DNA from: Muribaculaceae bacterium Zag1
GTDB taxonomy: Bacteria; Bacteroidota; Bacteroidia; Bacteroidales; Muribaculaceae
Direction of reading: 5' to 3'
Assembly (NCBI GenBank): GCA_002633115.1
Contig: NWBJ01000047.1
Coordinates: 1-58,978 of the forward strand
DNA: 58,978 nucleotides
The position numbers and the translations under genes are program-made. The notes beneath the pieces were generated by a model. That model did not search any database. It was not told the origin of the DNA and saw only the letters and a list, made by a program, of their open reading frames with translations. Of the stretch, positions 8,868 to 35,172 are shown one piece after another. Every line of letters starts with the position of its first letter. Position 1 is the first letter of the stretch.

Positions 8868-9326
8868 ATGACCGTATATGCCAATATAGGCAGCAATCAA
8901 GGCGACCGCCATGCTCTGATTGAGCAGGCGGTCGCCTTGATTGCTAAATCCTTTCCCGATGGGAGGATTCGGAACTCAGACTATATAGAGAGCGAGCCTT
9001 GGGGATATGATTCGCCAAATGCATTCTTGAATCTGGGCATAGCCATCGATTTGGATGTGGCTGAGGGTATAGGACCAGAGTTGGTGCTCGATAGATTGCT
9101 CACGGTTGAGAGGTGTGTGAGTGATTCTCCTCATCGTAATGCCGACGGCTCATATCGTGACCGCCCCATTGATATCGACCTCATAGCCATCGATTTTCTT
9201 GAGGTCAATACCCCTAATCTAATCCTTCCTCATCCTCGTGCCCATCTGCGCGATTTCGTGATGATCCCCCTGCGCCAACTCGCCCCCGAATCTTTAATTG
9301 ACTGGCTTCTAAACGTAAGCACGTAA
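8868..9326 (+). CDS. folK: Hydroxymethyldihydropteridine pyrophosphokinase
   Basis: This 152-residue protein matches HPPK, which transfers pyrophosphate from ATP to 6-hydroxymethyl-dihydropterin in folate synthesis. Visible motifs are the N-terminal ANIGSNQGDR, the central ESEPWGYDSPNAFLN, the metal-binding DRPIDIDLIAID (aspartates near 105-109) and the C-terminal LPHPRAHLRDFVMIPL. It lies 64 bp after infB on the same strand. Its last codons and stop run into the CGTAAGCAC repeat that forms the downstream stem, so the repeat overlaps the coding end. Confidence 0.93.
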   Translation: MTVYANIGSNQGDRHALIEQAVALIAKSFPDGRIRNSDYIESEPWGYDSPNAFLNLGIAIDLDVAEGIGPELVLDRLLTVERCVSDSPHRNADGSYRDRPIDIDLIAIDFLEVNTPNLILPHPRAHLRDFVMIPLRQLAPESLIDWLLNVST

Positions 9327-9440
9327 GTTTTACGTAAGCACGCTCAGAGACCCATATTCGTATTTGGACATAAATAATCTATACCAAATACGAATTATTC
9401 TTATTCGGTGTGCTTACGTAAGCTTACGTGCTTACGTTTT
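9311..9440. repeat. Nested inverted repeat downstream of folK
   Basis: Outer arms built from CGTAAGCAC/GTGCTTACG words (9311-9341 and 9409-9440) enclose an inner perfect 12-bp pair (ATTCGTATTTGG at 9356-9367 and CCAAATACGAAT at 9384-9395). A T run follows on the plus strand, so the whole structure could terminate folK transcription. The left arm overlaps the folK stop codon. Confidence 0.8.
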
Positions 9441-9444
9441 TGAT

Positions 9445-9477
9445 AAAAAAAAGGGCGCTATCGGATGATAGCGCCCT
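9445..9477 (-). terminator. Intrinsic terminator of the tRNA-Glu/rpsT unit
   Basis: On the minus strand an 11-bp perfect stem (arms at 9452-9462 and 9467-9477, 4-base loop) is followed by eight T residues. It lies 10 bp beyond the tRNA and is a textbook rho-independent terminator. Confidence 0.88.
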
Positions 9478-9887: not shown

Positions 9888-9959
9888 TAGCCCATAGCAG
9901 AATCGAACTGCTCTTTCAAGAATGAAAATCTTGCGTCCTAACCGATAGACGAATGGGCC
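9888..9959 (-). tRNA. tRNA-Glu (UUC), CCA not encoded
   Basis: The body is the same as the copy at 9488-9562, with anticodon TTC and the same acceptor and T arms. The three bases after the discriminator read CAA on the tRNA strand, so CCA must be added after transcription. It is the first gene of the minus-strand unit. Confidence 0.95.
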
Positions 9960-9978
9960 ATACCGCTTTTTGTGAGTG

Positions 9979-10010
9979 CAAATTTAGGGATTTTTTTTGA
10001 GGTGAACAAA
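9979..10010 (-). promoter_or_regulatory. Promoter of the tRNA-Glu/rpsT/tRNA-Glu unit
   Basis: On the minus strand TTTG (10007-10010), a 20-bp spacer and TAAATTTG (9979-9986) match the consensus exactly. Transcription would start about 10 bp before the tRNA. Confidence 0.85.
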
Positions 10011-10049
10011 TTTTTTTGTTGAAAATGTGTCGTTTAAGCTCTTTTTTTG

Positions 10050-10057
10050 TAATTTTG
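10050..10057 (+). promoter_or_regulatory. -7 promoter element for recO
   Basis: TAATTTTG lies 19 bp before the recO ATG, giving a leader of only about 12 nt. The upstream element is weak. Confidence 0.5.
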
Positions 10058-10076
10058 TGGTAAAAAGCGAGTAGAG

Positions 10077-10805
10077 ATGGAAGAAAAAGTGCGATGTTTG
10101 GCTCTCCGGACCATAAAATACAGTGATTCTACGTCGATTGCCACGGTATGGACTGACCGCCTCGGGCGCCTCTCAGTGGCTGTGCCGGCTGGTGCTGGAC
10201 GCGAGGCTCGGCGTCGGCGAGCCATCATGATGCCCCTTGGGGTATTTGACGCGATAGCCATCACACGCCATGGCCGAGAGCTGGCAACTCTGGCCGATGT
10301 GCGACCCTTGGTGCAGAGTCCGGCGGCAAGCGGCGACCCGGTGCGAGCCTCGATGGCCATGTTTCTGTCCGAGTTTCTCTACACTGTGCTCAAGGAGAGC
10401 GTGGCCGATCCGTATCTGTGCATGTTCCTGGCCGATAGCGTCAAGCTGATGGGCGAGTGCTCGCGCCCGGCTTTGGCCAATTTCCATCTTTATTTCCTGT
10501 ATCGGCTGGGTCATTTCTTGGGCATCGAGCCGGATGTTGGCACCTATCACACCGGTAGCTATTTCGACATCAAGGAGGCGCGATTCACACCTACCGCCCC
10601 ACTGCATCCGCTGCAATTGCCTCCCGACGAAGCAGCCGCAGTAAAGCTGCTGTCGCGCATCCAACCTCGCTCGCTGGCGCTGTGGCGCATGTCGCGCAGC
10701 CAGCGCCGGCGCGTGCTCGACGGCATCTTGCAGTTCTATTCTGTGCACTGCGCTCAGGTTTCTGATCTGCCGTCGCTGGCGCTGCTGCGCGAGATGTTTG
10801 ATTAG
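10077..10805 (+). CDS. recO: DNA repair protein RecO
   Basis: This 242-residue protein resembles RecO, which helps load RecA onto gaps with RecR. The N-terminal OB-fold region (about 1-80) contains RTIKYSDSTSIATVWTDRLGRLSV; the helical C-terminal domain contains FLYTVLKE and FHLYFLYRLGHFLGIEPD. The zinc-binding cysteines of some RecO proteins are absent, as is usual in Bacteroidetes. It converges with the barrel gene downstream, the two ends overlapping by a few bases. Confidence 0.87.
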   Translation: MEEKVRCLALRTIKYSDSTSIATVWTDRLGRLSVAVPAGAGREARRRRAIMMPLGVFDAIAITRHGRELATLADVRPLVQSPAASGDPVRASMAMFLSEFLYTVLKESVADPYLCMFLADSVKLMGECSRPALANFHLYFLYRLGHFLGIEPDVGTYHTGSYFDIKEARFTPTAPLHPLQLPPDEAAAVKLLSRIQPRSLALWRMSRSQRRRVLDGILQFYSVHCAQVSDLPSLALLREMFD

Positions 10806-11728
10806 AATCCTATGGTCAGGCCCGTGGTAAGGGATGAAAATTGCGGAGCGTTGCCCTTGAATTGCTTCATCGGCGCATAGCGCACATACAGGCCCAGCCA
10901 TGAATTGAGAAATACTATACCGAGGGCATCGACTGTGACGCGGCGCTGGTGCACGCTGTTGGAAGTCTGAGTCACTTCGTTGCCTTGCGCGTCGGTCCAG
11001 GCCGTCTTCATGCTGGCATGGGTGTTGAAGTTGAGCTGTGGACCAAAAGCTATCGACATCCATCGATTGTGGGGGAATCTAAAGGGGATATGTTGGCGAT
11101 ACAGCACTGGGATGGTGAGGCTGAAAATCTTGAGGCGCGAAAATTTGGGTATCACTCCCTCGGGGTAGGTGCCAAATCCTACCGCGCCGTCAGCTTCGAT
11201 CTGAAAGCATGTAAGGTTCTGCATCTTGTAGTTTCTCCAGTCAAGGCCCAAGCCGAAGGTCAGTTTGTTGCGGGTGCCGGGCAAGGTGTATTCGGCACCG
11301 AGCATGTAGAGCCAAGAGATATCCCATGAGCGACCCATCTGAGTGTCCATCTGGTCGGGTGCATCAAGGGCGAGGTTGAATCCTAAGCCTATGCCTCCGA
11401 TTATGGCGTCCCAATTGCTTTGGCTTTTCTTGGCTAATATGTATTTGTCGCCTTCTTTATTTTCCTCTATTCCGAGATGGCGGTCAATCCAAGACGAACC
11501 GCTCGAGCGGCGCTGCTTTTTCACTACTCGGTCGGCTGAATAGGGTTGGGTATAGGTGGTGCAAGTCGAGTCAGCGCCCCACACAGTGATGGTTACGCCT
11601 TTGTCATCCTCGACTACGGTCACTTTTTCGGCCGATGTGAAGACGTGGGTGGTAGAGTCGGGTTTCTCTTGGCCCAAGGCTGTGATGGCTGCTACGGCCA
11701 AGGCTATTGATATGATTAGGGTTTTCAT
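10802..11728 (-). CDS. Predicted outer-membrane beta-barrel protein (distal copy)
   Basis: This 308-residue protein has a signal peptide ending near ALGQ. A short strand-forming segment (KVTVVEDDKGVTITVW) and a polar region precede alternating strands such as NKLTFGLGLDWRNY and LGLYVRYAP, ending in GLTIGF. A terminal aromatic residue is usual for barrels folded by the BAM complex. It is a relative of the next gene upstream: both share the N-terminal VTV..DDG segment and the same closing pattern. It is the last gene of the sigma-factor operon, so it may be a target of that regulator. Substrate or partner is unknown. Confidence 0.65.
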   Translation of the reverse strand: MKTLIISIALAVAAITALGQEKPDSTTHVFTSAEKVTVVEDDKGVTITVWGADSTCTTYTQPYSADRVVKKQRRSSGSSWIDRHLGIEENKEGDKYILAKKSQSNWDAIIGGIGLGFNLALDAPDQMDTQMGRSWDISWLYMLGAEYTLPGTRNKLTFGLGLDWRNYKMQNLTCFQIEADGAVGFGTYPEGVIPKFSRLKIFSLTIPVLYRQHIPFRFPHNRWMSIAFGPQLNFNTHASMKTAWTDAQGNEVTQTSNSVHQRRVTVDALGIVFLNSWLGLYVRYAPMKQFKGNAPQFSSLTTGLTIGF

Positions 11729-11749
11729 TGCGGTAGAATTTTAGGGATG

Positions 11750-12589
11750 TCAGAATGCTAAGGATACTCCAAACGACCATCTTTTAAAGCGCGGTCCGTA
11801 GCCGCTGCGGAACGGCTGGCAGGGCGAGAATTTTGCGAAAACTCCAAAGGCGTTGGACCAACCCACAGTGGCCATGAAATCGGCAGTAAGGATTCGCTGC
11901 TCCAGGCCTTCGTATTTCTCAGTGTATTTCAGGTTGCTAATCTGGTATTCTGTTTTAGCGGTAGTATAATAATTGAGGTTGGCTATTGCCGAAAGCGAGA
12001 AGCCAAAGCCGTGGGACAATCGCTGGGTGAAGGTCACGGGTATCAACACGCTATACATATTGATTTGGCCCTTGCAGTCGGTCCAGTCAGCTTGGGCAGG
12101 GGTGAGTCTCAGGGTGCGGTCAAGATCGCGCGTTAGGGCCATGCCTTTACCTACGCGCATCTGAGTCCAATGCAGACCCATGCCGACTGAGAAAGATGTC
12201 TTCATGCTGGTCCACCACTGATAGCCTACAAAATCCATCAGCCCACACTCCCAGCCGTGGGTCAACCCGTAGTCGCTCTGCGTATCAGTGACATAGCCCC
12301 AGTATAGGCCGCGCAGCCAGATGGTTTCGCCTTGGCGATGCTTGCGCTTGTTGACAAATGGCAGGTTGATATCCCAAGAGCCTTCTTGCTGGTCGGGTGT
12401 AGCTTGCGATGAGTAAGTATAGACTGTGCCAGTAGCAGAGTCTTGGGTTTTGATTGATAAGAATCCGTCATCGGCGGTGACGGTCACAGTGGTGGGATTT
12501 TTGATAATGGCCACAGTATCAGTTGGCTCAGCCCCATGGCCAAGCACTGCTACCATCAAAGCAATAGCAATAAAGCATAATCGTTTCAT
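11750..12589 (-). CDS. Predicted outer-membrane beta-barrel protein (proximal copy)
   Basis: This 279-residue protein has a signal peptide (about 1-19, ending GHGA), an N-terminal segment TVTVTADDGFLSIKTQD, then amphipathic strands (TSFSVGMGLHWTQMRVG, FGFSLSAIANLNYY) and a terminal SFGVSLAF. It resembles its downstream neighbour in layout and probably arose by duplication. It starts 114 bp after the small secreted protein gene. I do not recognise a named family beyond the general barrel pattern. Confidence 0.65.
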   Translation of the reverse strand: MKRLCFIAIALMVAVLGHGAEPTDTVAIIKNPTTVTVTADDGFLSIKTQDSATGTVYTYSSQATPDQQEGSWDINLPFVNKRKHRQGETIWLRGLYWGYVTDTQSDYGLTHGWECGLMDFVGYQWWTSMKTSFSVGMGLHWTQMRVGKGMALTRDLDRTLRLTPAQADWTDCKGQINMYSVLIPVTFTQRLSHGFGFSLSAIANLNYYTTAKTEYQISNLKYTEKYEGLEQRILTADFMATVGWSNAFGVFAKFSPCQPFRSGYGPRFKRWSFGVSLAF

Positions 12590-12667
12590 GGAGGAATTCT
12601 ACTTATAGAAGATTAAAGAATGTTTTGGAGTCAATTCACAACTATCGAAATCAAAGATGGTAATATT

Positions 12668-12701
12668 TCCAAAAACTAAAAGCCAAAGGCCAAAAACCAC
12701 C
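12668..12701. repeat. CCAAAGGCCAAAAACC word in the sigma-factor operon
   Basis: Directly after the stop codon of the small secreted protein the sequence reads as CCAAAAACTAAAAGCC and CCAAAGGCCAAAAACC words. These are of the same family as the repeats near 8.8 kb and 58.3 kb. Confidence 0.6.
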
Positions 12702-12702
12702 T

Positions 12703-13149
12703 TTATTTCTTGAGCATGGCTTTTACCTGTTTGGTATTGGCTTCGCCTTCGAGATATATTAGCAGCACTTTGTCGCCTTTGTCGAGGTGCTGGTTGAGGT
12801 AGAGGATATAGCAGTTGCGGTCGTTGCGACGCGGCAGCCGATAGAAGGCGTAGTAGAGCGCTCCGCCTCGGTAACTGGTTTCGCTATCGACCGCTTGGGA
12901 GCCATCCGTGGTGACAAGCTCTACCATCTGGGGGATGTCGGTCTCTCGGTCTTGGATTGAGATGGAGCGGTAGAGGCTGAGGTCGTATTTGTTGAGCGCA
13001 TCACCTCTCACATTGGTCACCACGGCCTGGGGGTCTTTCTTGTAGCGGCCATCAAACAGCTCTTCGATGGCCAAGCCTTTTTGGGCCCAGGCTCCGATTG
13101 CGCTTATCAAGGCGGCGCAAAGCATTAAGGTAAGACGGCGTATCGACAT
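12703..13149 (-). CDS. Small secreted protein of a sigma-factor operon
   Basis: This 148-residue protein has a signal peptide ending near GAWAQ and a compact alpha/beta body (FDGRYKKDPQAVVTNVRGDALNKYDLSLYRS, then YYAFYRLP and CYILYLN strands). From memory it resembles a Bacteroidales family labelled DUF6108, but I cannot confirm this. It begins 2 bp after the putative anti-sigma gene, so the two are probably translated together. It may sense or buffer an envelope signal; no catalytic motif is visible. Confidence 0.6.
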   Translation of the reverse strand: MSIRRLTLMLCAALISAIGAWAQKGLAIEELFDGRYKKDPQAVVTNVRGDALNKYDLSLYRSISIQDRETDIPQMVELVTTDGSQAVDSETSYRGGALYYAFYRLPRRNDRNCYILYLNQHLDKGDKVLLIYLEGEANTKQVKAMLKK

Positions 13150-13151
13150 GG

Positions 13152-13592
13152 CTATTCGGGTGTTTGGTTAAACGATTGTAGGTCGGCGAGTATATCCTGG
13201 TTGACTTGGGCCGAGGCGGCTCCCATGGCCTGCAAGTCGGTGTCGATTAGGGCGATCACCATCTCGTCATCGCTGATGCGGCTGCCGTAGGCAAAGGCTT
13301 CGCATGGGTCGGGTCGGGTGAGGGTGAGAGCCCAGGCTCCAAATCCTATCAGTACGGCTATGGCGGCAGCGCGAGCCAGCACCGAACCGTAGCGCTGCGG
13401 CTTGATGGCGCCTTTCTTGTTTCGAGCCACGGCGAAATACCCCATCACGGCGCGGGCCTCATCGATGGCGGGCGAAGAGGCGTCAGTGCTGGCCAGCAGT
13501 TGGCGCAGCTCTCGCTCCTCGGCCACCGAGGTCTCGCCGGCGAAGTAACGCTCGATAAGGGATTCTATTTTTTCTTTTGTTGGCATTGTCAA
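13152..13592 (-). CDS. Putative membrane-bound anti-sigma factor
   Basis: This 146-residue protein has a cytoplasmic N-terminus (about 1-65) with the pattern IESLIERYFAGETSVAEERELRQLL, common to Bacteroidetes anti-sigma and sigma-linked proteins. One membrane helix follows (about 70-90, RAAAIAVLIGFGAWALTL), then a short periplasmic tail. It lies between the ECF sigma gene and a secreted protein gene. Size, topology and position suggest that it holds the sigma factor at the membrane; this is inference, since the zinc anti-sigma motif is absent. Confidence 0.6.
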   Translation of the reverse strand: MTMPTKEKIESLIERYFAGETSVAEERELRQLLASTDASSPAIDEARAVMGYFAVARNKKGAIKPQRYGSVLARAAAIAVLIGFGAWALTLTRPDPCEAFAYGSRISDDEMVIALIDTDLQAMGAASAQVNQDILADLQSFNQTPE

Positions 13593-13595
13593 AGT

Positions 13596-13620
13596 AATAA
13601 GTAAGGAGTAATAAGTAAGG
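13596..13620. repeat. GTAATAAGTAAGG heptamer repeat
   Basis: Four 7-bp units of GTAATAA/GTAAGGA type fill the gap between the sigma and anti-sigma genes. The same unit builds the longer array at 25.1 kb. Confidence 0.7.
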
Positions 13621-13622
13621 GG

Positions 13623-14186
13623 TCAAGTGGTGGGTTTGTGTCGGTCGCGGAAGGCTTGTCTCACCTGCTGGCGCGCTCGGCTCACGATCATGCGGGCGTT
13701 GGCGGCTGTGGTGCCGTATAGCTCGGCAAGCTCTTCGTATTCATAGCCGTGCATCTCTCGCTTGAGAAGCATCTCTCTGTCGCGCTCGGGCAGGTGGGCT
13801 CGGATCCAATCGCTTACTTGCTCATACAGCTCATCGGCATCGGCAGGAGGGTCATCGGCGACGAAGTCGGATGTTATGGGGTCTTGCGCTCTCGCCCTCT
13901 GGCGGCGAGCGAGGTCTATGCTGGCATGGCGCACAGCCGTGAAAGTCAGCGCCTGGGCGTGGCCATCGTCCTGCTGGTCTGGCGGCGGTCCATCGGGTTG
14001 AGATGACTGGCCATCAGCCAGGGAGGCTGGAGCATTTCCTTGTGAATCTTTTATTTGGCTGCTCCAGAGGCGGCAGAATGCGTCTTGCAGGGCATCGTCG
14101 GCCTCGGCTCCGGCTATGGCTTGGGCTCGGCTGCGCAACGCGTTGCGCAGTCTGATGAATACCGATGTCAGCTTGTTTGCTTGCAT
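13623..14186 (-). CDS. ECF-type RNA polymerase sigma factor
   Basis: This sigma-70-family protein of about 187 residues has region 2 (RLRNALRSRAQ, then DDALQDAFCRLW) and region 4 (LPERDREMLLKREMHGYEYEELAELYGTTAANARMIVSRARQQVRQAF). A Gln/Pro-rich linker of about 35 residues lies between them. I chose the Met of MQANKLTSV; the next in-frame start, 72 bp upstream, would lie close to or before the predicted transcription start. It heads a five-gene minus-strand group (anti-sigma candidate, secreted protein, two barrels), a typical arrangement for a self-contained envelope response. Confidence 0.85.
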   Translation of the reverse strand: MQANKLTSVFIRLRNALRSRAQAIAGAEADDALQDAFCRLWSSQIKDSQGNAPASLADGQSSQPDGPPPDQQDDGHAQALTFTAVRHASIDLARRQRARAQDPITSDFVADDPPADADELYEQVSDWIRAHLPERDREMLLKREMHGYEYEELAELYGTTAANARMIVSRARQQVRQAFRDRHKPTT

Positions 14187-14236
14187 TCTTTTCTCTTTCT
14201 TCTGTCTTATACACGCAGCTCCCCGCCGCTTTGCAA

Positions 14237-14244
14237 CAAAGTTA
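14237..14244 (-). promoter_or_regulatory. -7 promoter element for the sigma-factor operon
   Basis: TAACTTTG on the minus strand lies about 50 bp before the chosen sigma start codon. The upstream element at the standard spacing is not clear. A promoter recognised by the sigma factor itself may also exist but I cannot identify it. Confidence 0.5.
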
Positions 14245-14384
14245 CTGAATTTTTTCAAAAAATTATTGACCCTCCCCTAAAATGGTGATTAAGCCCTCTT
14301 CGTTAAAACTGCAAACAAACCATAATTTCACCTAATTTGGTTCTCTAAGGGAACTGTTTTAACCGTCCAACCCAATCCTGCCAT

Positions 14385-14440
14385 GTGTTAAATTTCCAAA
14401 TTTGGTGGTGATCCTCCACCAAAATTTGGAAATTTAACAC
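14385..14440. other. Long imperfect palindrome upstream of fic
   Basis: Arms of 24 and 25 bases (14385-14408 and 14416-14440) are complementary apart from one extra T, around a 7-base loop. It lies in the gap between the divergent sigma and fic genes, so it could be a regulator-binding site or a transcript end. Confidence 0.7.
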
Positions 14441-14462
14441 TCCGACGGGTAGATCCAAAAGA

Positions 14463-14513
14463 TTGTACCACTAAATTTGGTGGTACAATAATTTGGCGGT
14501 GGTACAATAATTT
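14463..14513. promoter_or_regulatory. Candidate operator of fic: palindrome plus direct repeat
   Basis: A palindrome with 9-bp perfect arms (TTGTACCAC at 14463-14471, GTGGTACAA at 14480-14488) lies just before the fic promoter. Its right half is repeated: 16 identical bases at 14479-14494 and 14498-14513, 19 bp apart, the second copy falling inside the promoter spacer. This suits binding by a repressor, possibly the HTH domain of the Fic protein itself. Confidence 0.55.
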
Positions 14514-14523
14514 ATTAACTTTG
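14492..14523 (+). promoter_or_regulatory. Promoter of fic
   Basis: TTTG (14492-14495), a 20-bp spacer and TAACTTTG (14516-14523) are an exact match to the consensus. The leader would be about 20 nt. Confidence 0.85.
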
Positions 14524-14549
14524 CACCTGAATTAGACAAGATACGCAAT

Positions 14550-15626
14550 ATGAGTAATCAATTTAAAACCATATATGAGGAATGGCAAAAGATAGAGACC
14601 GTTCGCAATGAGCTCAAAGAACGCATTGCCCAGAAGTTTATGTTGGAGTTCAACTATAATTCCAACCATATTGAGGGCAATACGCTGACCTATGGACAAA
14701 CGGAGCTCCTTCTCCTTTTTGGCACAGTCATGGGGAATGCCCGAATGCGTGACCTTGAAGAAATGAAAGCCCATAATGTTGGACTTAAAATGGTAATTGA
14801 GGAAGCCAAATCTTATGAAAAACCGCTGACAGAGACTTTTATCCGCCAGGTGCATAAGATATTGCTAAGAGAGGACTACGAGGTGCATCGCCAGTTGCCA
14901 AGCGGAGTCGTTTCATCCTACACAGTGCATGCGGGATGCTATAAGACACGCCCTAATTCTGTAATCACCCGTACCGGTGAACGATTTGAATACGCTTCGC
15001 CAGAAGAAACGTCTGCGCTAATGGCCGACCTGCTGACATGGTACAATGAGGAGGTAGAGAGAGGCGTACTCTCTCCTATAGAATTAGCTGCGTTGTTCCA
15101 CTATCGCTATATACGCATTCACCCCTTTGAAGATGGCAATGGACGCATTGCCCGCTTGATGGTCAATTTCATCCTTGCCCGCTACGGATATCCCATGGTA
15201 GTGGTACCCAGCAAGGCTAAGAATACGTATCTTAATGCTCTTAACCAATGCGACATAATGGTTGGCAAAGTGCCAGCCGATGGAGCACACGCCACACTTG
15301 AGCAAGTGCGTCCTTTTGTGGAATACTTTGAGAATCTGACAGAAAGCGAGATGCTTAAGGATATAGCGATAGTGAAGGGTGGAGATACCACTCAATGGTG
15401 GTATGACGGGGAGATTGTGAAGTTTAAGAATGACATGGTAAACCGTATACTGGAAATTCTTGCCAATTCTCCCAAGACCTCTATTCGTGATTTGGCCGAA
15501 AAGGTGGGCATCAACAAGTCGGCCGTCCAGAAACACCTAAAAGCCCTACAAGAGCAGGAGTACATCATCCGTGTAGGCAGTAGCACTCGCGGTGGCGAAT
15601 GGCACATCTCTCTGACACGCCTATAA
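14550..15626 (+). CDS. Fic domain protein with C-terminal winged helix
   Basis: This 358-residue protein has the Fic catalytic motif HPFEDGNGR (residues 191-199), with H191 as expected base. An N-terminal inhibitory helix motif SNHIEG (38-43) makes it a class II Fic, where the Glu blocks ATP binding until released. The last 60 residues form a winged helix (SIRDLAEKVGINKSAVQKHLKALQEQEYIIRVG). Fic enzymes usually transfer AMP to a protein target; the target here is unknown. The HTH and the palindromes over its promoter suggest autoregulation. No partner antitoxin gene is adjacent, consistent with the inhibitory motif being in the same chain. Confidence 0.9.
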   Translation: MSNQFKTIYEEWQKIETVRNELKERIAQKFMLEFNYNSNHIEGNTLTYGQTELLLLFGTVMGNARMRDLEEMKAHNVGLKMVIEEAKSYEKPLTETFIRQVHKILLREDYEVHRQLPSGVVSSYTVHAGCYKTRPNSVITRTGERFEYASPEETSALMADLLTWYNEEVERGVLSPIELAALFHYRYIRIHPFEDGNGRIARLMVNFILARYGYPMVVVPSKAKNTYLNALNQCDIMVGKVPADGAHATLEQVRPFVEYFENLTESEMLKDIAIVKGGDTTQWWYDGEIVKFKNDMVNRILEILANSPKTSIRDLAEKVGINKSAVQKHLKALQEQEYIIRVGSSTRGGEWHISLTRL

Positions 15627-15644
15627 AGAAACCTGTAATCCCCC

Positions 15645-15709
15645 AACTTGCACGTAAATCAGCGGGAATCACGATTTTCCCCGATTTCCGCTGGTTTACG
15701 TGTAAGGTT
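15645..15709. terminator. Hairpin after fic
   Basis: Arms at 15645-15670 and 15683-15709 pair over about 25 bases with a few mismatches. They contain the AATCAGCGG word that also builds the palindrome at 19.6 kb. It lies 18 bp after the fic stop. Confidence 0.65.
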
Positions 15710-15721
15710 GCTGTAATTTTT

Positions 15722-15757
15722 AGGTTGGTAAGGATTCGATGAGGGGGAGGAATAGAT
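15722..15757 (+). repeat. 36-bp inverted repeat, left copy
   Basis: These 36 bases are the exact reverse complement of 17205-17240. The match continues outward, with two mismatches, for about nine more bases. The pair encloses the broken AAA-ATPase/nuclease gene and its promoter, giving a unit of about 1.5 kb. Confidence 0.9.
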
Positions 15758-15805
15758 GGTCGAGGGTGATGGAGTTGTGGATTATGTCAAAAATTCGTCC
15801 ATGAA

Positions 15806-15836
15806 TTGGTTTTGTGGGGATTATTTATTACATTTG
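15806..15836 (+). promoter_or_regulatory. Promoter of the AAA-ATPase/nuclease pseudogene
   Basis: TTG (15806-15808), a 20-bp spacer and TACATTTG (15829-15836) form a good Bacteroidetes promoter inside the inverted-repeat unit, 17 bp before the start codon. Confidence 0.75.
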
Positions 15837-15852
15837 CACAAACTTTAGGCGT

Positions 15853-17173
15853 ATGATACGGAAAAAGGTAAAATATCCCATTGGTGTACAATCATTCGAG
15901 AAGATTAGGACTGATGGATTGCTGTATGTGGATAAGACTGGATTGATAGCCCAATTGATTGACGAATCCAATTATGTTTTCTTGTCCCGTCCGCGCAGAT
16001 TCGGCAAAAGCCTGTTGTTATCTACCATCGAGGCATATTTCCAAGGCAAAAAGGAATTGTTTGAAGGATTGGAAATTAGCCAGTATGAAGACAAATGGGA
16101 TGCTTATCCAGTGTTTCATTTTGACCTAAGCCGGGCAGAAGCCAGTAACCCTGATGACTTGGAAACATATCTCAACAATCAGATTGCTCAATACGAAGAA
16201 TATTATGGAATAGGCACCGATAAGCTCTATGGCTCGTGGGCGAACGCTTCGGATGGCTAATAGAGAAAGTCAGCAAAGCCACTGACAAGAGATGCGTAAT
16301 CTTAGTAGATGAATACGACAAAGGCATCCAAGAGACTATTAATGACCAAGAGGCTTTGGAAAAGAACCAAGCTTTGTTGCGCCCATTCTTTTCTCAACTC
16401 AAGGCTCTTGATAAGTACATTGAGTTCGCGATGGTCACTGGCGTGGCCCGCTTCAGACATTACACCTTATTCTCTGGTGCTAACAATCTGGAGGATATCT
16501 CATTCTTGGATGATTACGCCTCCATCTGTGGCATCACGCGCGACGAATTGCAGAGATATTTCCCTCAAGGGGTTGATGAACTTGCTACCGCCTACTCCAT
16601 GACGCATGAGGAAATTATTGGTGAGTTGTTGCAGAAATACGACGGCTATCGATTTACCGGGGCAGAGGTGCACGTATTCAATCCATTCAGCCTGCTCAAT
16701 GCTTTTAAGTCAAAGGAGCTGGCCGGCTATTGGCTGATGTCGGGTACTTCTAAGGTGTTTGTTGATTTTTTAAAAAGAGCCAGTTACGATTTATCAAAAA
16801 TCAATATGATATGGGCTTCGCGTGAGCAGTTGAGCAGTCTCTATGATACCAACGACCCCATCCCTCTGCTATATCAAACTGGATATCTCACCATAGCCGA
16901 GTACAAGCGATTAGAACGGGTTTATTTACTAAAAATACCCAATGGCGAGGTGCGTGGAGCCCTCCTCGAATTGAATTCAAGCTCGATCATTCGGCCGAAT
17001 CAGCCTTGAGGCAGATTGAGGATAATGGCTACGCGCGCCCATACTTAAACGATGGCCGCGCCATCTACCGTATCGGAGCCTCCTTCTCTTCTGAAAAGCG
17101 CAACATCCAGCGTTGGCTAGTCCAGACCCCCACAGGCCAAACCCAGGAAATCCTCCCACCTTCAAAGAGATAA
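15853..17173 (+). pseudogene. Broken AAA-ATPase / PD-(D/E)XK nuclease-like gene
   Basis: The reading frame begins MIRKKVKYPIGVQSFEKIR and contains the Walker A region RPRRFGKSLLLST, typical of the AAA-ATPase-like proteins with a C-terminal PD-(D/E)XK domain that are abundant in Bacteroidetes. It is broken twice. Near 16238-16240 one G appears lost, shifting from LYGSW to the frame GERFGWLIEKV, which carries the Walker B-like CVILVDEYDK. Near 16970 the frame shifts again at a GAATT-GAATT junction: the text jumps from NGEVRGALLE to EFKLDHSAESALRQIEDNGYARPYL, the end of the nuclease domain. From memory of the family about 110-130 residues between these are missing. The gene is therefore probably non-functional. 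Confidence 0.85.
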
Positions 17174-17204
17174 CCAATCCCCCGTAATTCCCATAATCAG
17201 TGGA

Positions 17205-17240
17205 ATCTATTCCTCCCCCTCATCGAATCCTTACCAACCT
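17205..17240 (-). repeat. 36-bp inverted repeat, right copy
   Basis: Exact reverse complement of 15722-15757. It starts 32 bp after the pseudogene stop. The bases just inside it (ATAATCAGTGGA) resemble the AATCAGCGGAATC word of nearby terminators. Confidence 0.9.
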
Positions 17241-17276
17241 GAAAATTTCGAGCAGATGAAATTTTTCTGAGAAAAA

Positions 17277-17309
17277 TTGTCGGCGTATGTTGAATTTTTT
17301 GTAATTTTG
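17277..17309 (+). promoter_or_regulatory. Promoter of the secreted-protein/SusD-like pair
   Basis: TTG (17277-17279), a 22-bp spacer and TAATTTTG (17302-17309) approximate the consensus, with spacing slightly long. The leader would be about 80 nt. Confidence 0.6.
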
Positions 17310-17394
17310 TGAATCTGGAGAGCTGAGGCTATAAACCCCTGGATATAGACATATCATACAATCAACATATTTATTTACGCCTTAACCATTTAGC

Positions 17395-17880
17395 ATGAAA
17401 ATCCTAAGAAAGTCAGTGACCTTGGCCATAGCGTGCGTTGCCATGATGGGTGCCTGGGCTCAGGATTCGACTCCTACGCATTTCATCGTGTGGAAAGCCG
17501 ACGGCGAGCAGATAGCATACAGCCTCGGCAACCGACCCCGCGTGGTGCCGGCCCAAGACAAGGTGACCATCGTCGACGGTGGGGTGGAGGTGGAGTTTGA
17601 CTGCGCCGACATCCACAAGTACACCCTCGGCACAGCTTCGTCAGAAGGCATCGCCGCAGTTGTGGCCCAGGACGGCACCATCAGCCGGGCCGATGGAGTG
17701 CTCACCATGAGCGGATTCCGCCGAGAGGCAGCCTACGCCGTCTACACCATCTCGGGCATAGAGCGCGCTGCCGGACGCCTCGACGCCAACGGATGCGGAC
17801 AGATCAATCTGCGCCATTTCCCCACCGGCATTTACATTATCACAGTTGACAACCAAACCATTAAATTCACAATCCGATGA
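17395..17880 (+). CDS. Small secreted protein with type IX-like C-terminus
   Basis: This 161-residue protein has a signal peptide ending at MMGAWAQ, a beta-rich segment (FIVWKADGEQIAYSLGNRPRVV, then VEVEFDCADIHKYTLG), and a final 50 residues (YAVYTISGIERAAGRL, then LPTGIYIITV-like strands ending IKFTIR). These resemble type A sorting domains of type IX secretion. It is probably exported to the surface or medium. Its last four bases overlap the start of the SusD-like gene (ATGA), so both products are probably made together. Function unknown. Confidence 0.65.
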   Translation: MKILRKSVTLAIACVAMMGAWAQDSTPTHFIVWKADGEQIAYSLGNRPRVVPAQDKVTIVDGGVEVEFDCADIHKYTLGTASSEGIAAVVAQDGTISRADGVLTMSGFRREAAYAVYTISGIERAAGRLDANGCGQINLRHFPTGIYIITVDNQTIKFTIR

Positions 17881-19568
17881 GAAAGACAATACCCATGCTT
17901 CTTGCCGCTGGGATGCTGGCCACCGCCATGGGAGCCGCTGCCCAAGGCGTGCTGATATATAAGTCTGACAATACAGTGCTGCGCTACAACCATGCTGACA
18001 TCGACAGCATCGTGGCCTTCGCCGCTGGCGAGGAGGTGCAGACCGTTGACGCTACCGAATTTGAAAACGCCTACTACGCCACCCGCAGCGAGGCCTGGTT
18101 TGGCCGCAACTTCTGGGAGGGCATGTGGCTCTGCACCGACGAGGCCGTTGGCGTAAGCTTCAATGGCGATTGGTGGGACAATGGCCGATTCTACTATGCC
18201 TCGGTCCATGATTTCCAGGAGTACGCTCCCGGTTCTGGCCTGATTTGGGACCTCATCTCGGGCATCAACACTACCAATGAGATTATCGCCAAATATTCCA
18301 ACCCCGAGGATCCGGCTCTCGCTCCCCTGCGTGCCATCCGCGCCTACTATCATTTCTGGATGATGGATGTCTACGGCAACGTGCCTATCTTGGATAGTGT
18401 TGATGCCTCGACCTACCAGCAGCAGCGCGCCGATGTGGCCGCTTTCATCGAGAAAGAACTCCTTGCCGCCATTCCTGACCTCACCATCTCAAACAACGAG
18501 GCCACCTACGGTCGCCCCAACAAGTGGATGGCCGAGGCCCTGCTCGCTAAGCTGTACCTCAACTGGGGTGTGTACACCAACGACATCACCACCGTCGATG
18601 GCGACACCGCCAATCCAAAGCTGGCCGACTGCATCCAATGGTGCGACGAAATCATCAACTCGGGAGTGTTCAGCCTCGGTGATAACTATCGCAGCAAATT
18701 CTTCCCTGACAATGGCGTGCAAGTCACCGACTTTATCTACGCTGTGCCTTTCGACGCTGTAGAGCTCGACTTCGGCACTAACAAATACTCGGCAGCTCAC
18801 TCGATGATGCGCTTCTGCGACTACCGCAAAGGTGGTTACTGCAAGCCCTACCTGTGGGGATGGGCTCCCGGCACTACTCGCGCTGGCCTCTACCTGCTTA
18901 CCCCTGAGTGCGTTGACCTGTTCTGCCTTGAGGGCGACCAGCGCAACGAGGTGATTGCTGTGGGCGAACAGTATGCTTGGGACGAAAACTTCAATAAGAC
19001 TGACGAGCCCGTGATCGTCTACAATGACACTCGCTTCCGCAAGGAGCTGGGCCCGCTGGACTTCAAGAAGGAATTTGAGTGGAATGATATCACTAAGCTT
19101 GATGTCGGTTCGGGTGATGACCTGACTGCCTGCATGAATGGAGCTCGCTGCTTCAAATACCCGGCCAATCCCGAGGACGACACTGTGGCTCCGAGCTACT
19201 ATATCGGCCAAAGCAATGATATTCCAATCTTCCGTCTCGCTGATGTGATGTTGATGAAGGCTGAATGCTGCCTGCGTCAGGGTAAGGAGGCTGATGCCAT
19301 TGAGCTCGTCAACCAGGTACGCGCTGCTTCATCGGCTCCCATGGCTACCTCGCTCACTATGCAGGACTTGCTCGATGAGCGCGGACGCGAAATGATTATG
19401 GAGCCTTGGCGCCGCAACGACCTGATCCGTTTTGGCAAGTTTGAGAATTGCGCAGCCTGGAAGGTTGAGGCCTCTCCCTCAACAATGTCTGACGTCAACA
19501 AGCGCGTCTTCCCATTCCCAGCCGACGCCCTCATCCAATACGACTGGGCCCAGAACCCCGGCTACTAA
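17877..19568 (+). CDS. Orphan SusD/RagB-like protein without a lipobox
   Basis: This 563-residue protein has SusD helical repeat features (LRAIRAYYHFWMMDVYGNVPIL near 160-185; RLADVMLMKAECCLRQGKEADAIELVNQVRA; DERGREMIMEPWRRNDLIRFGKF). SusD proteins are normally lipoproteins that cap a SusC channel. Here the signal peptide ends AMGAAAQG with no Cys, so membrane anchoring by lipid is not predicted. After it comes VLIYKSDNTVLRYNHADIDSIVAF, a short module seen at the N-terminus of other secreted Bacteroidetes proteins rather than of SusD. No SusC gene is near. It is translationally coupled to the secreted protein upstream. Confidence 0.85.
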   Translation: MRKTIPMLLAAGMLATAMGAAAQGVLIYKSDNTVLRYNHADIDSIVAFAAGEEVQTVDATEFENAYYATRSEAWFGRNFWEGMWLCTDEAVGVSFNGDWWDNGRFYYASVHDFQEYAPGSGLIWDLISGINTTNEIIAKYSNPEDPALAPLRAIRAYYHFWMMDVYGNVPILDSVDASTYQQQRADVAAFIEKELLAAIPDLTISNNEATYGRPNKWMAEALLAKLYLNWGVYTNDITTVDGDTANPKLADCIQWCDEIINSGVFSLGDNYRSKFFPDNGVQVTDFIYAVPFDAVELDFGTNKYSAAHSMMRFCDYRKGGYCKPYLWGWAPGTTRAGLYLLTPECVDLFCLEGDQRNEVIAVGEQYAWDENFNKTDEPVIVYNDTRFRKELGPLDFKKEFEWNDITKLDVGSGDDLTACMNGARCFKYPANPEDDTVAPSYYIGQSNDIPIFRLADVMLMKAECCLRQGKEADAIELVNQVRAASSAPMATSLTMQDLLDERGREMIMEPWRRNDLIRFGKFENCAAWKVEASPSTMSDVNKRVFPFPADALIQYDWAQNPGY

Positions 19569-19583
19569 TTCCCAGGATACGCA

Positions 19584-19649
19584 AAAATCCCCTATAATCA
19601 GCGGAATCTACCCAAATTTGGGTAGATTCCGCTGATTATAGGGGATTTT
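19584..19649. terminator. Perfect 66-bp palindrome between convergent genes
   Basis: Each arm is 33 bases with no mismatch and no spacer (centre between 19616 and 19617). It lies between the SusD-like gene and metY, which converge, with A/T tracts at both ends, so it probably terminates both. It contains the AATCAGCGGAATC word. Confidence 0.85.
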
Positions 19650-19662
19650 CGTTTCTGACAGA

Positions 19663-21978: not shown

Positions 21979-23274
21979 ATGAAAATCATAGACAGAGATA
22001 GGTACCTTAATAGGTTGATAAGCCTGAGACACAATGGCCAAGTGAAGATTATCACTGGCATACGCCGCTGTGGAAAATCTTTCCTCTTGAACAAGATCTT
22101 CCATGATTACCTAATTGGCCAAGGCGTTTCAAATGGCCAAATTATCCAGCTTGACTTAGACGACAGCCTTAACGCTCGCTATCGTAATCCCTTGGAGTTA
22201 GATACTTATCTGCGAGAGCAATTAAAAGAAAAGGCTACTCAGTATTATATTTTACTTGATGAAATACAAAAAGTCAAGCCAGTGCCCAATCCTTATCTCA
22301 AAGAGGATAGGATTGGATTTGTGGACATTCTCAATGGCCTGAAGAATCTCACCAATGTCGATGTGTATGTTACGGGCAGCAATTCTAAAATGCTTTCAAC
22401 CGATATTGCGACTGAGTTTAGAGGAAGAGGAGATTTGATAGCAATGTCTCCGTTGACTTATGATGAGTTTTATGCCGCTTATTCAGATGACAAAAAAAGA
22501 GCATGGCGCGAGTTCTTCACTTATGGGGGCATGCCTAAAATTTTATCTTTAAAATCCCATGAGGAGAAGGCTAAATATCTCTTCGATCTTTTCAACCATA
22601 TCTACATAAAGGATATCTTAGAGCGGTACAACCTAAAAGCAGATGAGGCTGTCCTTAATGATTTGTTGAATGTGATTTCATCAGCGGTGGGATCATTGAC
22701 TAATCCATCTCGGATTGCTGATACATTTCAGTCAGTTAAGAAATTGAAAATTAAGAACGAAACTATTTCTCGCTACCTCGACTGCTTTGTGGAGGCCTTC
22801 TTGCTCCATAAAGCCTTACGCTTCAACATAAAGGGGCGCTCCTATATTGAAACCCCCTTAAAGTATTACTTCACGGATATTGGGTTACGTAATGCCAAAA
22901 TCAATTTTCGCCAACAAGAGGAGAACCATATAATGGAGAACATTCTATTCAATGAGTTAAAAGCAAGAGGCTTCTCGGTTGATATCGGAGTGGTAGAGTA
23001 TAATCATAAGAATGCAGAGGGCAAGAACGTTTGCTCTCAGCTCGAGGTGGATTTCGTAGTTAACAAGGGCGATTTGCGTTATTACATCCAATCGGCTCTG
23101 ACTGTTGATGAAGAGTCAAAACGCCTGCAAGAGGTTAACTCACTGAATCGCATCGATGACTCCTTCACAAAAATCGTGGTAGTAAAAGACGATATCATCC
23201 CTTGGACCGATGATCGAGGTATCCAATACATCAATATCGAGGATTTTCTCTTGAACAAAATCGACCACTTGTAA
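21979..23274 (+). CDS. AAA_14 / DUF4143 family ATPase
   Basis: This 431-residue protein has a Walker A motif GIRRCGKS (27-34), a Walker B region YYILLDEIQKV (near 94), a sensor-like VYVTGSNSKML, and a C-terminal DUF4143 region with SRYLDCFVEAFLLHKALRFNIKGR and a PD-(D/E)XK-like LEVDFVVNKGDLRYYIQSA. The family is widespread and often multi-copy in Bacteroidetes; its role is not settled (defence and toxin roles have been suggested). It is a single gene with its own promoter. It is intact, unlike the distantly comparable broken ATPase/nuclease gene at 15.8 kb. Confidence 0.85.
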   Translation: MKIIDRDRYLNRLISLRHNGQVKIITGIRRCGKSFLLNKIFHDYLIGQGVSNGQIIQLDLDDSLNARYRNPLELDTYLREQLKEKATQYYILLDEIQKVKPVPNPYLKEDRIGFVDILNGLKNLTNVDVYVTGSNSKMLSTDIATEFRGRGDLIAMSPLTYDEFYAAYSDDKKRAWREFFTYGGMPKILSLKSHEEKAKYLFDLFNHIYIKDILERYNLKADEAVLNDLLNVISSAVGSLTNPSRIADTFQSVKKLKIKNETISRYLDCFVEAFLLHKALRFNIKGRSYIETPLKYYFTDIGLRNAKINFRQQEENHIMENILFNELKARGFSVDIGVVEYNHKNAEGKNVCSQLEVDFVVNKGDLRYYIQSALTVDEESKRLQEVNSLNRIDDSFTKIVVVKDDIIPWTDDRGIQYINIEDFLLNKIDHL

Positions 23275-34827: not shown

Positions 34828-34944
34828 CGTAAGCACGGATAACGTAAGCACGGATAACGTAAGCACGGATAACGTAAGCACGTAAGATTTACGTAAGCAC
34901 ACTGGTGGGGCTTGAAATTGTCTATAAAGATAATTTCAAGTCCC
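34828..34944. repeat. CGTAAGCACGGATAA repeats and central stem after GH43
   Basis: Three 15-bp CGTAAGCACGGATAA units are followed by two partial ones (to 34900). Then comes a 13-bp stem (34907-34919 with 34932-34944, one G-U pair). The units are complementary to the GTGCTTACG units at 35096-35172, so the gap can also form one very long fold. Confidence 0.8.
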
Positions 34945-34989
34945 ATTAATTTTTTATCGTCAAATTAAATCTTTATCTTCAGGCTTAAA

Positions 34990-35079
34990 TTTATCCTCTA
35001 ATCAAAATTTATCCTCTAATCAAAATTTATCATCTAATCAAAATTTATCATCTAATCAAAACTTATCATCAAATTAAAT
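34990..35079. repeat. 18-bp tandem repeat, about five copies
   Basis: The unit TTTATCCTCTAATCAAAA (later copies TTTATCATC...) begins at 34990, 35008, 35026 and 35044, with a fifth degenerate copy. It is very A/T-rich and sits in the loop between the two complementary CGTAAGCAC arrays. Confidence 0.85.
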
Positions 35080-35095
35080 TTTGTTTACAATCTCT

Positions 35096-35172
35096 GTGTG
35101 CTTACGTAAAGCTTACGTGCTTACGTTTTACGTGCTTACGTTTTACTGCTTACGTTTTTCGTGCTTACGTTT
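35096..35172. repeat. GTGCTTACG repeats before the GH30 terminator
   Basis: Five copies of GTGCTTACGT-type words, complementary to the array at 34828-34900. Together these repeats and the terminator fill the 405-bp gap between the convergent GH43 and GH30 genes; no gene is visible in it. Confidence 0.85.

Follow-up and report, generated by a model that had tools for sequence, protein, structure and literature searches.

The window, that is, the whole 58,978-nucleotide stretch that was analysed, contains a single gene enclosed by a pair of inverted arms and set between two neighbours that are fixed across two species. The left neighbour is a forward-strand gene (14550–15626) for a Fic/DOC family protein with a C-terminal winged helix (Pfam PF02661; PADLOC models PDC-S04/SoFic), with a hairpin at its 3′ end (15647–15708, extent set by eye; core AATCAGCGG(A/G)A). 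Next comes the left arm (15713–15757, reverse strand), which DNA and protein comparison assign to the last codons and stop (TAA, 15720–15722) of an ATPase_2 (PDC-S27-like) remnant, and then a conserved upstream stretch on the forward strand (15804–15855), a putative promoter that includes the start codon of the enclosed gene. Pfam and paralog comparison identify the latter as a broken DUF1703-type gene with PF09820 spread over two frames (15853–17172, forward strand, end placed by eye). Behind it lies, by eye, the left half of a hairpin (17190–17208) with a local core (AATCAGTGGAATCTA), which runs straight into the right arm (17205–17249, forward strand), assigned by DNA and protein comparison to the same ATPase_2 3′ end in the opposite orientation, with a TGA stop at 17240–17242. 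The right neighbour (17395–19568, forward strand) consists of an ORF without a Pfam match (17395–17880) and a SusD-like gene identified by Pfam (17877–19568), whose 3′ end carries a perfect palindrome with the core AATCAGCGGAATC (19584–19649), as an inverted-pair search showed.

Neither a transposase nor a recombinase was found among the 18 window ORFs scanned with Pfam (43 were listed), and an NCBIfam search of five proteins returned no match. An AAA_14/DUF4143 ATPase (21979–23274), which lies some 6 kb away from the gene for the Fic protein, matches the PADLOC candidate PDC-S01 at 351 bits.

Geometry and distribution of the inverted repeat

The arms are complementary at 42 of 43 positions (15715–15757 and 17205–17247), with a perfect core of 36 bp (15722–15757 versus 17205–17240); including the outer nine bases (15713–15721 and 17241–17249), each arm measures 45 bp with two mismatches. 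When re-read from the sequence, the repeat proved real and just as the earlier note had given it, outer mismatches included, and by simple arithmetic only ~4 × 10−13 perfect 36-bp inverted pairs are expected by chance in 59 kb of random sequence. The window holds 175 inverted pairs, and among the 25 listed, four have longer arms (47–53 nt), each of them less complementary (71–94%). Clustered short repeats of the ACGTAAGCACG type, with long imperfect inverted pairs, were also observed at 34856–35142 and 9311–9452.

A 37-base form of the repeat, with up to three mismatches allowed, occurs at two places in the 4.46-Mb genome from which the window derives (G000), both of them at this locus. Its 36-base form is present in 2 of 49 genomes of the genus, namely G000 itself and a sister species (G014), with no match in the other 47; a 26-base core matches one record in a species-level genome collection, which is G014 contig C143 (identical matches, shifted by 8,000 bases), and a viral collection yielded no match to a 20-base core. 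The earlier note had proposed the 36-bp sequence as a border common to the gene family and suggested searching the genome and its relatives for pairs at other family members; none were found outside this locus and G014. Because the sequence is confined to this locus in G000, plus G014, the shared-border reading fails for it. Inspection by eye showed no target-site duplication around the arms.

The enclosed gene and the stubs on either side

Between the arms, Pfam recognizes AAA-ATPase_like (PF09820) in two frames, the first (15814–16257) covering profile positions 1–117 of 201 (E = 3.8e-42) and the second (16236–17006) positions 124–201 of 201 (E = 5.6e-17). Compared with its paralogs, the gene has lost ~290 bp from its C-terminal half, before the nuclease end, and the PDDEXK_9 nuclease domain (PF08011), which accompanies PF09820 in the two intact paralogs scanned, has no match in either of its ORFs. 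With PF09820 split over two frames and ~290 bp missing, the earlier reading of a broken gene of the AAA-ATPase/nuclease family stands. Its longest matches are 72% identical in G000 and 71% in G014 (C-terminal pieces reach 82%), and because orthologous DNA of the two species is ~93% identical, the gene has no ortholog in G014. The upstream stretch (15804–15855) recurs twice in G014, at 96% over 52 bp and 91% over 67–68 bp; the copy on contig C143 precedes a TPR-like gene, and that on contig C234 precedes the first codons of that same gene, followed by a different PF09820 gene.

Comparison with G014 clarifies the arms. One G014 arm adjoins the Fic gene on contig C234 (93% identical to window 9907–15788; the Fic gene alone 95% at the nucleotide level), and the other adjoins the SusD-type gene on contig C143 (93% identical to window 17205–19650). 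The two G014 arms match each other along 153 bp (95%), versus 43 bp in the window, and homology of the window left arm with G014 extends inwards to 15788 (DNA) or 15797 (protein). Read outwards, each G014 arm presents a promoter-like box, the codons MDNFIGREEA and then, in another frame, the tail RNKYSDIVHNSI(N/T)(L/I)DHLFLPLIESLPT and a stop, i.e., ~10 N-terminal codons joined to the last ~28 codons of a gene whose middle is deleted. In the window, the protein tail of the left arm ends in DIIHNSITLDHLFLPLIESLPT and a stop. By eye, MDNFIGREEA resembles family starts such as MDKLIGRKRE, and only termini can be read in the translated arms and in their G014 extensions, the ATPase core with its Walker motifs being absent.

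When the 29-aa tail was used in a protein search of G000 and G014, it matched C234, the source of the query (E = 4.5e-15), C143 (E = 7.2e-14), the left arm of the window (E = 7.5e-9), and the right arm (E = 0.011, in a match crossing a stop). It then reached, weakly, the tails of full-length ATPases (42–44% identity, E = 0.23 and 1.4), both of which contain ATPase_2 (PF01637), and one of these two, the homolog on contig C115, matches the PADLOC phage-defence candidate PDC-S27 at 625 bits. The same search did not reveal the source gene of the stubs in G000 or G014. In addition, a profile of 16 C-termini, hand-picked from 24, was scored in the expected frame against 2000 dinucleotide shuffles per sequence, yielding 22.8 bits for the right and 18.1 for the left G014 arm and 14.7 for the left arm of the window, versus best shuffles of 11.1, 8.4, and 7.5 bits, respectively. 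Taken alone, the right arm of the window, which keeps ~12 codons, did not score above its shuffles and, having too few codons for a score of its own, was assigned via DNA identity to the other arms.

As judged from these DNA and protein comparisons, the arms are shown to be the C-terminal codons and stop of one ATPase_2-type protein, both reading outwards, and because both encode the same tail outwards, the inverted repeat consists of two 3′ stubs that a single lost gene left behind, pointing in opposite directions. The same comparisons show the arms at the same positions in both species, on the Fic side and the SusD side, with different genes inside. The join of C234 and C143 in G014 is one that we infer, because each of them terminates in an IS-like repeat present in many copies. 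The ~50-bp repeat lies at L014 7786–7839 and L015 15469–15522, and a 200-base query holding it gave 36 match rows in G014 (mostly to that part) and 9 in G000; found at or near contig ends wherever the length of the contig is known, it is probably an insertion sequence or the end of one. In a search with the Fic gene, only G014, besides G000, matched at 95%, and 12 other genomes had a match, at best 64–77%; none of them offered an empty site for comparison.

Hairpins recur around these genes. The core of the Fic-gene hairpin also closes the SusD-type gene and the genes AAA1 and AAA2 in G014. The right arm of the window begins in the middle of another hairpin (core AATCAGTGGAATC from ~17195), whose full form closes a gene in G014, where it stands whole after AAA1 (L014 5967–6012).

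Flank repeats and gene order in the two sister genomes

PF09820 gives 55 match rows in G000 (4.5 Mb) and 66 in G014 (4.1 Mb), versus 0–7 rows in the other 47 genomes of the genus (1.8–2.9 Mb, completeness 65–99%), of which 9 have any and 38 none. The expansion of PF09820 AAA-nuclease genes is specific to the G000/G014 lineage.

The suggestion that matching repeats bound other members of the family was borne out for a minority of them, with other, mostly locus-specific sequences, and not for the 36-bp sequence. Counting as a flank repeat any repeat of at least 40 bits common to both 450-bp flanks, with ORFs of 900–2400 bp as controls, we found one at 9 of 47 PF09820 genes in G000 versus 12 of 291 others (Fisher p = 0.0007), with the controls drawn from eight sequences (the window plus seven further contigs, whole or in part; 833 kb) and 28 of the 47 AAA genes lying in other stretches. 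The window, picked for its repeat, is one of these nine; leaving it out gives 8 of 46 (p = 0.002). Of the 19 AAA genes that lie in the eight sequences, 4 have a flank repeat, or 3 of 18 without the window. When only inverted flank repeats are counted, G000 has 4 of 47 versus 4 of 291 (p = 0.015; 3 of 46 without the window), with p of 0.05–0.06 when the threshold is shifted to 36 or 45 bits. In G014, flank repeats were found at 8 of 43 AAA genes versus 1 of 86 others (p = 0.0006), where the controls are neighbours of AAA genes and ORFs whose flanks were short (3 AAA, 24 other) were left out. A region-wise scan for inverted repeats of at least 36 bits gave no clear difference (9 of 44 further PF09820 matches, at 43 loci, versus 2 of 17 control regions).

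Frequently these flank repeats are hairpins whose sequence varies between loci; simple or dispersed repeats occur among them too. Of 63 stronger hairpins in the AAA regions (the window included), 12 had a similar partner within their own region, as did none of 11 in the controls. Across the eight sequences, 15 of 275 possible pairs are similar hairpins no more than 6 kb apart, whereas in 2000 permutations such pairs averaged 0.9 and never exceeded 5, and several of the 15 stem from one family on contig C136. Many similar pairs in this 833-kb scan flank other genes, and the hairpin pattern is therefore not exclusive to AAA genes. Near-identical hairpin families, each spanning a few kilobases, were observed in G000 at C136:110305–129354 (19 kb), C117:49275–53743, C38:67131–69705, and C110:83011–86078; such local families lie close to the borders of single genes or of small gene groups, and their sequences differ by locus.

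Synteny was evaluated by comparing 42 stretches of G014 with the available G000 sequence. In the compared stretches, which hold part of the PF09820 copies of G014, 28 of 46 PF09820 matches of G000 find a G014 counterpart at 84% identity or more (two of them short only) and 18 do not. We counted 34 synteny breaks, with 10 of their 68 edges inside ORFs. At one locus (G000 C4:396–2214), perfect 35-bp inverted repeats enclose a PF09820 gene whose orientation with respect to both flanks is reversed in G014 C40, where the right flank measures just 155 bp and the ATPase_2 gene adjacent in G000 is absent from the stretch. Between C117 and C65, a PF09820 gene and its neighbour swap order across ~120-bp repeats, and single genes are inverted and permuted between C136 and C238 and between C91 and C142. 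Spacers with a break hold hairpins in 20 of 36 cases, versus 8 of 38 collinear ones; after matching for spacer length, this excess is only suggestive and not significant (Mantel–Haenszel odds ratio 3.3, chi-square 3.4). A second gene without its middle was also found: G000 C4 (L121 1–230) retains the tail and start region of a gene that is intact, and AAA_14-like by eye, in G014 C40 (L241 658–2307).

Competing explanations and known systems

We think it quite probable that the repeat is a pair of inverted stubs of a lost ATPase_2 gene, a scar in a gene-turnover hotspot edged by short local repeats, with the enclosed interval most likely a passive scar of that turnover. An ancestor would have duplicated the stub together with a neighbour gene in inverted orientation, and the interval between the stub copies would later have swapped and lost genes. 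In the lineage of the window, a DUF1703 gene may have settled behind the old upstream region and then decayed, and the hairpin that would have ended it is now cut, with the right arm starting in its middle. The process would most likely be recombination between nearby short repeats, inverted or direct (gene stubs and hairpins), with illegitimate deletion, acting within islands of single-gene, defence-like ATPases and nucleases that turn over fast. The flanks of G000 and G014 diverge by ~7%, yet 36 bp are identical between the arms of the window; though the duplication predates the species split, this identity is compatible with chance over a short stretch, gene conversion, or occasional inversion. 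Inversion of the enclosed 1.5 kb could occur by recombination across the arms.

That possibility borders on another reading, in which a recombinase encoded elsewhere actively flips the 1.5-kb segment and thereby switches the enclosed gene. The arms do enclose an upstream region and one gene, the AAA gene at C4, enclosed by perfect 35-bp inverted repeats, lies the other way round in the sister species, and the parts of one survey considered here describe many invertible loci in several Bacteroidetes, with a distant master recombinase of Bacteroides fragilis serving at least 13 of them (PMC5903667). But the gene to be switched is a broken one, the arms themselves are stubs of coding sequence, and because they are unique to this locus no common recombinase recognition site is seen, and we regard such switching as quite unlikely. 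Less probable still is that the arms are the terminal inverted repeats of a 1.5-kb non-autonomous DUF1703 transposon mobilized by a transposase in trans. Such an element, which the earlier note had offered as a candidate, would account for near-perfect terminal repeats around a single gene and for the expanded family (55 and 66 match rows), but its ends have no second copy elsewhere in G000 and are absent from 47 of the 49 genus genomes, the G014 arms flank other genes and continue inwards as a different gene, and by eye no target-site duplication is seen. Arms as transposon ends were rejected on their uniqueness to the locus in genome, genus, species-level, and viral searches, and they are better explained as coding 3′ ends of another gene.

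A broader reading would make repeat-edged shuffling of single genes an enzyme-driven system of this lineage, of which the window is one decayed instance. It draws on the flank-repeat counts (9/47 versus 12/291 in G000 and 8/43 versus 1/86 in G014), on the 15 similar hairpin pairs within 6 kb against a permutation mean of 0.9 and maximum of 5, and on individual genes inverted or permuted between the species. Ordinary repeat recombination with relaxed selection would, however, give the same pattern; the region-wise scan barely separates AAA loci (9/44) from controls (2/17), the hairpin excess at breaks is not significant after length matching, some flank repeats are simple or dispersed, and flank repeats occur at non-AAA genes too. 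We consider this reading unlikely, and a dedicated enzyme behind the turnover is possible but unsupported. In its most specific form, which we likewise hold to be unlikely, defence-like ATPase/nuclease genes would be cassettes edged by locus-private hairpins or inverted repeats at which they are flipped, swapped, or lost, possibly by DUF1703 AAA-nucleases acting on the flanking hairpins, with the window as a decayed case.

The paired stubs of a lost gene, as the favoured explanation, would give a perfect inverted repeat an ordinary origin, which urges caution against calling every such repeat a transposon end. More widely, about one-fifth of the PF09820 genes of G000 and G014 are edged by matching local repeats and several islands are rearranged gene by gene. 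If an enzyme were to drive this shuffling, it would be a new way of shuffling single-gene defence systems. Among the papers listed in our literature search, none dealt with DUF1703 genes edged by repeats or hairpins, which is weak evidence of novelty.

In the parts of the published accounts considered here, DUF1703 proteins are said to combine an AAA+ module with a restriction-like nuclease (PMC1913061), and Cardinium cCpun is described as carrying 25 complete DUF1703 paralogs, an expansion with recombination (PMC6387759). The window gene shares PF09820 with this family (PF09820 plus PF08011) and differs in being broken. The paralog expansion in G000 and G014 is like that of Cardinium, as far as the latter is described there, and larger (55 and 66 match rows if fragments are counted), and those parts of both accounts do not mention flanking repeats (PMC6387759, PMC1913061), unlike what we report here. 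Inverted-repeat invertible loci, as the parts of the survey considered here describe them for several Bacteroidetes (PMC5903667), are likewise segments with an upstream region between inverted repeats; they differ from this locus, where a whole gene rather than a promoter is enclosed, the repeat is locus-specific, and a recombinase is not tied to it. At another locus (G000 C4), an AAA gene between inverted repeats does lie inverted in G014, a difference between species and not a switch observed within one population.

With ATPase_2 (PF01637)/PDC-S27, the arms share the C-terminus and the G014 extensions also the N-terminal start, but there the gene is full, while here start and end stubs stand without the middle. 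Integron-style gene cassettes, finally, also comprise single genes with hairpin-forming repeats between them, the repeats of a given array resembling one another. G000 and G014 differ from them in having genes in both orientations and repeats that change from locus to locus.
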